From a virus, in the IMG/VR virus record IMGVR_UViG_3300042090_000914, positions 1 through 31,427 of that record: 31,427 nucleotides of DNA; one strand, given 5' to 3'. How positions within the stretch are numbered: the first letter of the stretch is position 1; every line of letters begins with the position of its first letter. A model generated the notes under the pieces. That model was given only the letters and a program-made list of their open reading frames with translations, was not told where the DNA came from and searched no databases. Both the position numbers and the translations under genes were made by a program. Below are positions 1 through 31,065 of the stretch, in pieces.

Positions 1-598
1 CAACCGCGTCGTGAACCGCGCCGCGAACCGCGTCGTGAACCGCGCCGCGAACCGCGTCGCGAACCGCGTCGCCAACCGCGCCGCGAACCGCGTCGCGAAC
101 CGCGCCGTCAACCGCGCCGTCAACCGCGCCGCGAACCGCGCCGTCAACCGCGTCGCGAACCGCGCCGTCGACCGCGCCGCCAACCGCGTCGCGAACCGCG
201 CCGTCGACCGCGCCGCCAACCGCGCCGCCAACCGCGCCGTCGACCGCGCCGTGAACCGCGCCGTCAACCGCGTCGCCAACCGCGTCGCCAACCGCGCCGT
301 CAACCGCGTCGCGAACCGCGCCGTCAACCGCGCCGTCAACCGCGCCTCTCCTGAGCATCTGAATCAGGAGTGCAGCCGTAGGTGCCGCAAAAGCCATGAC
401 CAGCGGCGATGATACCCATACGACATTGCCATGCCATGGGATGTCTGCGTATTGATAACATTTCTCTGCAGCCATCTCGAAGCGGCGCCGATCTGCTGGC
501 GCAGTTCGTAATCCAATCTCTATCCATTTATCAGCCCATTCGTCAAAGCGTGCGACCATCTCTGGCGTCAGCGAATCGATTCTGGCCACTTTTTTCAT
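1..598 (-). CDS. DUF6745-like protein with 4-residue tandem repeats (3' end off window)
   Basis: The frame opens at ATG 596-598 behind a GGGAGAGG ribosome site and stays open to the left edge, so at least 199 residues are present and the C-terminus is missing. The N-terminal 80 residues read MKKVARIDSLTPEMV, then a KWIEIGLRTAPADR block and a WHGNVVWVSSPL block. This matches my memory of the N-terminus of DUF6745-type proteins (IGLST..ADR, then a VW..SPL motif), which are usually followed by long four-residue repeats such as ASVGASVR. Here the repeat is Ala-Val plus two residues drawn from Asp, Gly, Arg and His. It lies 31 bp downstream of the 107-residue gene and is probably co-transcribed with it. 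No enzymatic motif is visible and the function is unknown. The plus-strand Asn-Arg-Ala frame over the same bases is a shadow of this repeat. Family assignment is from recall, so moderately sure; that the gene is real, quite sure. Confidence 0.72.
   Translation of the reverse strand, partial: MKKVARIDSLTPEMVARFDEWADKWIEIGLRTAPADRRRFEMAAEKCYQYADIPWHGNVVWVSSPLVMAFAAPTAALLIQMLRRGAVDGAVDGAVRDAVDGAVGDAVGDAVDGAVHGAVDGAVGGAVGGAVDGAVRDAVGGAVDGAVRDAVDGAVRGAVDGAVDGAVRDAVRGAVGDAVRDAVRGAVHDAVRGAVHDAV
2..346 (-). repeat. 12-bp tandem repeat, 28 full units, coding
   Basis: Twenty-eight consecutive 12-bp units plus a partial unit, each encoding four residues on the minus strand. In coding orientation the Ala codon is always GCG. 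The Val codon is GTT in 25 units and GTC in three. The other two codons vary only between CAC, CGC, GGC and GAC (His/Arg/Gly/Asp) at one position, and between GAC and GGC (Asp/Gly) at the next. There are no indels within the visible array. Confidence 0.95.
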
Positions 599-629
599 TT
601 TCCTCTCCCGATAAATAACGAACGATGGA

Positions 630-953
630 TCAGTCAGCGACGCGACGTAATGCCGCAGGTGTGTATTCGACTTGGACCGGCAACAGATATTTTCCGACCG
701 GAATGCGAGCCGTTGAATGTTCTTCGTGTTTCAGATCAGTGGGCGCCGAGGCATCAAGATACCGCGCTCCAGAATGCGCGACGTAGAGGCGCACATTTTG
801 AGTCTGATCGAAAAATTCAAAACGGTGCTTATGGCCCGTCACTTCTCCATAGGCGAGAACCACTTCGTTATCCTTGACCGGTTGCAGAATCGCGTCGACC
901 GGGATCGCTTCGGCACGCACCAGCAATACATCGCCTTGTCGAATAATGCCCAT
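630..953 (-). CDS. Conserved small phage/plasmid protein, partner of the DUF6745-like gene
   Basis: 107 residues. ATG 951-953 is preceded by a strong AAAGGAGT ribosome site. The start MGIIRQGDVLLVRAEAIP, a central VVLAYGEVTGHKHRFE segment, a LKHEEHSTARIPVGKY segment and the end VQVEYTPAALRRVAD form a pattern I recall from small proteins in phages and plasmids encoded beside repeat-rich DUF6745 or leucine-rich-repeat proteins. Several His and Glu residues (GHKHRF, KHEEH) could bind metal, but that is inference. No signal peptide or membrane segment. It is the first gene of the minus-strand operon, with a sigma70-like promoter about 45 bp upstream. Function unknown; I am confident it is a real gene and less sure of any role. 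Confidence 0.8.
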   Translation of the reverse strand: MGIIRQGDVLLVRAEAIPVDAILQPVKDNEVVLAYGEVTGHKHRFEFFDQTQNVRLYVAHSGARYLDASAPTDLKHEEHSTARIPVGKYLLPVQVEYTPAALRRVAD

Positions 954-1005
954 GAAAAAAACTCCTTTAGAAGGTATGGTTGCAATTGATTCATCGAGAG
1001 CGTAC

Positions 1006-1033
1006 TTTAAAGCCGCTTTATCGCAAATGTCAA
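1006..1033 (-). promoter_or_regulatory. Sigma70-like promoter for the 953-1 operon
   Basis: On the minus strand TTGACA (1033-1028) is followed by a 16-nt spacer and TTTAAA (1011-1006). The predicted start near 999 leaves a leader of about 45 nt before ATG 953. A weaker plus-strand candidate, TTGCAA (980-985) with TACTTT (1003-1008), could drive the 1073 operon from the same 119-bp divergent gap. Confidence 0.5.
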
Positions 1034-29866: not shown

Positions 29867-30235
29867 GTGAGCACGGGCACCTACAATCTATGCATCAACC
29901 AGTATGCGACCTACACGAGGATATTCGTATGGCTGACGAGTATCTGCGGTTGTGGCACTGTGGGAGCGGCTCCGGGGCCGGTTGATCTGACTGGGTACAC
30001 GGCCTCTCTTCAAATCCGCGCTTTTCAGTTGGCTCCGGATATTCTGTACGATGCTAGTTCAGATATCGTCTTAGGGGGCACATCGGGATCGATCGCGCTC
30101 ACCATTCCTGCGTCCGCGACCGCTGATTTCACTTGGTGGACCGGAGTGTACGATTTGATCCTCACCGACTCGAGCGGCAATGTGACGCGCCTTCTGCAAG
30201 GCACAGTCACGGTGTCGGCGGGAGTGACGCCATGA
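29867..30235 (+). CDS. Small phage virion adaptor-type protein
   Basis: 122 residues from GTG 29867, 7 bp after the previous stop; the spacer contains GAG as a weak ribosome site. [20 protein letters not shown], then [20 protein letters not shown] and [20 protein letters not shown] with [14 protein letters not shown] match a common phage protein family (LTGYTA.MQIR....G.I.L....A....W..G.YDLEL....G.V.RLL.G.VTVS) related to baseplate BppU-like domains. It lacks a signal peptide and is coupled by ATGA to the second collagen-like gene. Probably an attachment domain for that fibre. Confidence 0.75.
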
Positions 30236-31065
30236 GCGTGCCGGGAACTCAAGTGATCGTGTCGACCACGCAAACCAATGTGATCGAGGTAGTCACGCCG
30301 GGCCCGCAAGGTCCCACCGGTCCGATGGGTAATCCTGGTCCGACAGGTCCTTCGGGAACTGCGGGACCCACGGGCCCCGGTGTCGGGGCTACCGGCCCGA
30401 CCGGAGCAGCTGGATCTTTCGGTCCCACGGGCCCGACCGGAACCACAGGGCCCTCGGGGAGCGGCGCTCAGGGACCCACCGGTCCCACCGGGCCTGGCGT
30501 CGGTGCGACGGGTCCCACCGGATCAACCGGCCCGACCGGTACGGGACCGACAGGTCCGATGGGCGCATCGGGTGCGGCAGGACCCACCGGCCCTACGGGC
30601 GCTGCTGTCACGGGCCCGACGGGCCCGAGCGGTGCTAGCGGTACGCATGGTGCCACGGGACCCACCGGTACAGCAGGTCCCACCGGCCCCACTGGCACCG
30701 GAGGCAGCGGACCTACGGGCCCCACGGGACCACCTGCCGCATTCGGCGTTCAGGTCACGGCGACTCTCGCATCCGGCAACACTGATAACTATGACCCTGC
30801 GGGCTACATCCCAGGCGTGACGAACTGCTTGATCTTGACGCCGACGGATGATACCTCCACGCTCTTGGGGCTTCTGGCGACAGGTGTGGCGAACGGATTC
30901 TCGCTGCTGATTTGGAATGCGAGCTCGACGCTTTACATCACCTTTGAGAATCAGGCGAGCAGCGCGACAGCGAATCAATTCGCGTGCCCGGGGGCCGCAA
31001 CAGTGGAACTCGGGCCCTTCACGAAGGTGCTCGCGACATATATAGGTGGTCAATGGACATTGTGA
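30232..31065 (+). CDS. Second collagen-like phage fibre protein
   Basis: 277 residues from ATG 30232, ATGA overlap. A short N-terminal segment ([26 protein letters not shown]) precedes Gly-Pro-Thr repeats through about residue 168, including three longer Gly-Val-Gly-Ala interruptions. The C-terminal about 105 residues ([20 protein letters not shown] to YIGGQWTL) parallel the tip of the fibre at 23308: the [20 protein letters not shown], and a final hydrophobic strand are in the same order. No signal peptide. Probably a trimeric fibre whose tip recognises a surface. Confidence 0.85.
30300..30734 (+). repeat. Gly-Pro-Thr collagen-like coding repeat
   Basis: GGN-CCN-ACN codon triplets with varied third bases, like those at 23430-23755 but longer. 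Confidence 0.9.

Follow-up and report, generated by a model that had tools for sequence, protein, structure and literature searches.

A tandem array of tetrapeptides with two variable residues per unit in a phage gene of the DUF6745 family

The TAL effector repeats of Xanthomonas are near-identical units that differ mainly at two residues each, and they are thought to evolve by repeat duplication, deletion and recombination (PMC4522561). In diversity-generating retroelements, protein variation is likewise confined to fixed codons. The locus described here lies at the left edge of the window (the whole stretch of viral DNA that was analysed, 31,427 bp) and shares features with both systems. Like TAL effectors, its product contains near-identical repeats varying at two residues. 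However, the TAL unit spans 33-35 aa (variable residues 12/13) rather than 4 aa, no sequence kinship between the two was seen, the context of the window array is phage genomes, and TAL effectors bind DNA sequence-specifically, whereas the window array is not known to bind DNA. As in diversity-generating retroelements, the variation falls in fixed codons, but it lacks their adenine-specific pattern and sits inside a tandem array. The features of the locus are as follows:

2..598, minus strand: 5' part of the array-protein gene, 199 codons open, with no stop before the left edge
344..598, minus strand: N-domain, 85 aa, non-repetitive
8..343, minus strand, within 2..343: tandem array (Ala-Val-x1-x2), 28 full 12-bp units
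2..7, minus strand: first two codons of a 29th unit, the contig ending inside the array
601..609, minus strand: GGGAGAGGA, a likely ribosome binding site separated by 2 bases from the ATG at 598, as read from the sequence
1..412, plus strand: shadow frames of Asn-Arg-Ala/Val and Pro-Arg repeats, not a gene but a by-product of the 12-bp period
630..953, minus strand: partner gene, 107 aa, phrog_27831, upstream and 31 bp before the array gene
962..968, minus strand: AAAGGAG, a likely ribosome binding site for the partner gene, as read from the sequence
1004..1033, minus strand: promoter-like site TTGACA-18-TAAAGT before the two-gene unit, by consensus match only

The minus-strand frame is almost certainly the front part of a gene for an N-domain/tetrapeptide-array protein of the DUF6745 family. 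The preliminary description had proposed a minus-strand gene with its own ribosome site, running off the edge of the contig beneath a plus-strand shadow frame, and each of these points was borne out. The plus-strand open frames (1..354 and 2..412) have no stop across the array, which would suit the Asn-Arg-Ala frame as the true gene, but this follows from the 12-bp period, which is divisible by 3, and from a unit free of stops. All three antisense frames are interrupted by stops over the N-domain, in the window as well as in 31 of 42 homologues. N-domain substitutions among homologues fall at minus-frame codon positions 1/2/3 in the proportion 1171/978/2004, with the excess at the third position. 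With the minus-strand protein also kept in 53 related loci, and no homologue found in which the plus frame is kept and the minus frame broken, a plus-strand gene is exceedingly improbable.

Among these relatives, which are encoded at 53 viral loci, the complete homologues read N-domain, array and C-domain in that order, the C-domain being Pfam DUF6745 (PF20530). In the five homologues tested (L005, L006, L015, L016 and L049, the last being the only array-less one), PF20530 scored 84.9-132.5 bits (cut-off 27). The window copy itself gives no PF20530 match, but the domain follows the array in sequence order, and this contig stops before the array is complete. We infer a DUF6745 C-domain for this copy, expected off the contig beyond the array, because leftward extension failed: the record consists of one contig, and the exact 46-base pattern of its left end had no match in viral_contigs. 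The N-domain is 75-85% identical to those of the closest phage homologues, among them L017 (80%), which forms, with L043, the two ends of one contig, carrying the N-domain and the C-domain respectively. In addition, window residues 6-71 match a protein of Nocardia farcinica (40.9% identity, E 7e-4), a near-identical sister record of which is annotated DUF6745. The N-terminal 85 residues matched none of the Pfam, PHROG or NCBIfam models. Thus, of the earlier suggestion that the N-terminus is DUF6745-like, the kinship stands, because homologues with the same N-domain carry PF20530 after the array, while the N-domain taken alone resembles no family model.

The N-domain, the C-domain and their order are the same in the DUF6745 proteins WP_060595207.1 of Nocardia farcinica and gp174 of phage Ma-LMM01. 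Some DUF6745 proteins of Nocardia have an array of the QV type at the same place. In contrast to the window gene, L049, L235-L237 and Ma-LMM01 gp174 have both domains but no array, and at this position a plain linker is present in Ma-LMM01 and in most members encoded on actinobacterial chromosomes. Given these array-less relatives in phages and actinobacterial chromosomes, we infer that the protein first had its two domains joined by a plain linker, which later expanded into the array. When the predicted structure of homologue L016 was compared with predicted viral structures by Foldseek, the Ma-LMM01 protein (named DUF6745) was recovered with an E value of 3e-12. Searches of Pfam, PHROGs, NCBIfam, PADLOC and the literature assigned no function to the protein; the PADLOC anti-phage defence models gave no significant match, the literature search returned no paper mentioning DUF6745 or naming Ma-LMM01 gp174, and the genes around two array-less actinobacterial members showed no common pathway. 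The 82.7-kb contig IMGVR_UViG_3300022562_001757 carries DUF6745 genes at three separate places (L178, L181 and L193), each with an array of the QL type.

The phrog_27831 gene and the array gene probably form one expressed unit. A phrog_27831 relative adjoins the DUF6745 gene at 28 of the 53 related loci, and in Ma-LMM01 the partner relative directly precedes its neighbour (gp175-gp174), in the same gene order as in the window. The phrog_27831 protein is characterised by RQGDVLL...TGHKHRF...EEH motifs, and it recurs on either side of DUF6745 genes, upstream or downstream; it is also present in Microcystis phages.

The array of the window gene draws on a very small set of codons, and the earlier counts were reproduced exactly: Ala is GCG in 28 of 28 units, Val is GTT in 25 and GTC in 3, x1 is GAC (10), CGC (9), GGC (6) or CAC (3), and x2 is GGC (18) or GAC (10). 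With the 15 other ORFs of the contig as the codon-use reference (GCG 0.43, GTT 0.10, GGC 0.48, GAC 0.41), the chances of such sets arising under contig usage are 4e-11, 6e-22, 2e-8 and 1e-8 for GCG, GTT, GGC and GAC, respectively. The comparison with related phages that had been proposed was extended to 128 distinct arrays from phages and bacteria, comprising 3,781 units with the cores AV (87), QV (26), SV (8), QL (5) and SL (2), and the narrow codon sets proved general. Within arrays, diversity reaches about 0.4-0.5 at the first and second bases of x1 and the second base of x2, against a median of 0 at the four third positions. In 52 AV arrays (1,822 units), the mean values are 0.51, 0.45 and 0.51 at the three variable bases, and each of the four codons shows 0.04-0.06, with a median of 0, at its third base; between AV arrays, the third-base consensus differs (0.62, 0.68, 0.32 and 0.42 for the four codons). 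Arrays of phages and bacteria with cores other than AV follow the same pattern. The claim that two residues per unit are kept variable therefore holds widely, since nearly all arrays are diverse at x1 and x2. Codon bias and tRNA reuse were both rejected as causes of the uniform codons, because one residue may be encoded differently at x1 and at x2 of a single array: in 25 arrays the Gly or Asp codon differs between the two positions (Fisher p<1e-3), which indicates common descent of the units.

The residues at the variable positions are also limited. At x1 they are mostly Gly, Arg, Asp/Glu, aromatic or Ser, and at x2 mostly Asp, Gly, Ala or Ser. Where the third base of x1 is fixed as C, Gly, Arg, Asp, Ser, His and Tyr predominate; where it is fixed as G, the main residues are Arg, Trp, Gly, Glu and Ser. 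Cys occurs at 3 of 3,781 x1 positions, although it is one step from common letters, and this near-absence indicates that residues are filtered at the protein level.

Close relatives differ in unit number and order, with the main caveat for this comparison that many arrays come from short-read assemblies, in which both may be wrong. The flanks of L203 and L204 are 99.75% identical over 3.2 kb and 99.8% identical over 1.1 kb, whereas their arrays have 38 and 56 units in an order no closer than shuffled (27 versus 22.9+-4.2), with identical silent bases in all 94 units. No near copies of L203 were found among annotated phages or plasmids. L207 (upstream of 4001) is near-identical to this pair and has about 5 units left, by contraction or assembly collapse. 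L179 and L180, with flanks 100% identical, have 26 and 29 units, the first 23 in common, and the common array part of L146 and L147 differs by one unit, Gly-Gly to Gly-Val (an x2 change). Turnover is not visible everywhere, since the arrays of L187 and L188 are identical and one Nocardia strain has two copies with the same array. Across near-identical phages, array length changes in 12-bp steps; several arrays contain long block repeats, and repeated three-unit blocks are in excess in 47% of the arrays with at least 20 units. The array is an assembly breakpoint too, as contigs end in it on both sides (L017/L043, L024/L044, L013/L161, L120/L132 and L030/L216); the genomes in question are probably circular or permuted, and the assembler would have opened them at the repeat. 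Two irregular arrays were seen as well. L015:4980-7646 is long, with 70 units of 30 types and many non-AV units, and has perhaps stopped turning over, whereas L159 (upstream of 4001) has shorter units interspersed in its array (AVGAVGDAVDAVDD), which suggests in-frame slips inside units.

These observations are probably explained by fast turnover of units combined with selection at the amino acid level for variety at x1 and x2. The preliminary description had invoked recent array expansion or homogenisation, of which homogenisation agrees with the data. Recent expansion alone would make x1 and x2 uniform too, so that something must keep them diverse: neutral expansion of one or a few units accounts for the uniform silent bases, but x1 and x2, which should be equally uniform, have medians near 0.5 against 0. 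In simulations that let arrays gain units, lose them and recombine at junctions, the neutral model left x1 and x2 uniform and diversity near 0 at all positions, which makes this explanation very improbable. Separate old founders, by which units with differing x1 and x2 would carry linked silent bases, were hinted at only at x2 of L040. With selection for unit variety, the same simulation gave diversities of 0.59 at x1, 0.50 at x2 and 0-0.03 at silent sites. An at least 100-fold elevated mutation rate at the x sites produced the same diversities, and the block-repeat statistics did not separate selection from hypermutation. Targeted mutation of x1 at its first two bases and of x2 at its middle base, with turnover homogenising the rest, also suits the finding that the same three columns hold the variation in most arrays, and the single x2 change between L146 and L147. 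It is nevertheless improbable. Reverse transcriptase was found in 0 of 27 array-bearing records, some of which may be fragments, against three positive control genomes, and silent third-base A hardly varies in the arrays that have it (L035, L053 and L028), which argues against an adenine-specific process; a retroelement origin was rejected on these two grounds. Changes of the C/G, A/G and T types are all present, a combination that fits no deaminase known to us, and the exclusion of residues such as Cys requires a protein-level filter in any case. Selection together with turnover is favoured because few residues are used and these are chemically diverse, with Cys nearly absent, as well as on account of the missing reverse transcriptase and the nearly invariant silent A.

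As for the role of the array, the overall explanation, for which the chances seem about even, is that a DUF6745-family phage protein, probably co-expressed with the small partner, had its inter-domain linker turned into a hypervariable tetrapeptide array, whose units would be gained, lost and reshuffled rapidly while amino-acid-level selection would keep x1 and x2 varied. The array might then be a rod, extended and perhaps helical, in which the core (A/S/Q-V/L) is constant and a row of changeable residues is presented to a variable partner; turnover of the array could thereby retune binding quickly. The rod is a guess, and the surface position of x1 and x2 given in the preliminary description a conjecture, because most of the array has pLDDT below 50 in the AlphaFold 2 models of both the window protein and L016, in which the N-domain mostly reaches 68-88 and about 86-96, respectively. 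The L016 model, with good N- and C-domains, had no Foldseek match in the PDB (best E 1.7) and gave weak rows only in VIA-align (best Z 3.5), and a sequence search returned no structurally solved relative. The window AV array scored 35.9 bits against the glycine-zipper OmpA model (PF13436; cut-off 27, best stretch 147-176), a match that appears compositional. A membrane helix is unlikely as a shared role, because the sister QV and QL arrays are hydrophilic (mean GRAVY 0.53 for AV, -0.73 for QV and -0.89 for QL).

A changeable recognition or binding surface is the leading guess for the array, though a tentative one, and its close rival, also possible but somewhat doubtful, is a heterogeneous spacer, that is, a long flexible or helical linker without recognition, in which variety at x1 and x2 would be selected since perfectly regular A-V-x-x chains would aggregate or pair in the wrong register. 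The scrambled order and the widely ranging length of arrays between near-identical phages suit a spacer, as do the array-less homologues with the same N- and C-domains, whose existence shows that the array is dispensable in principle. However, other polar residues, for example Lys, Gln, Thr and Asn, should be acceptable in a spacer and yet are rare, and the alphabets consist of a small number of chemically diverse residues (G, R, D/E, W/Y/H and S). A more specific version of the recognition surface, in which each unit, unusually small at four residues, contributes two of them to a small code and shuffling is so rapid that sister phages have unrelated codes, is rather unlikely; such an array could serve phage-phage or phage-host self/non-self recognition. 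Signatures of rapid turnover with kept variety often mark conflict or recognition molecules, and here they occur, as fast array turnover with variety kept at fixed residues, in the DUF6745 family. The system is easily testable, with short units, many natural variants and a recurrent partner gene, and the array also explains the breaks of many phage contigs at the DUF6745 gene.

The remainder of the window carries ordinary tailed-phage genes, including those for helicases/primase, terminase, portal, major head protein and tail fibres, and the array gene lies on the strand opposite to the helicase genes. Near the right end, collagen-like Gly-Pro-Thr repeats (GPTGPTG...) occur on the plus strand at 30235-31065, in a probable tail-associated protein.
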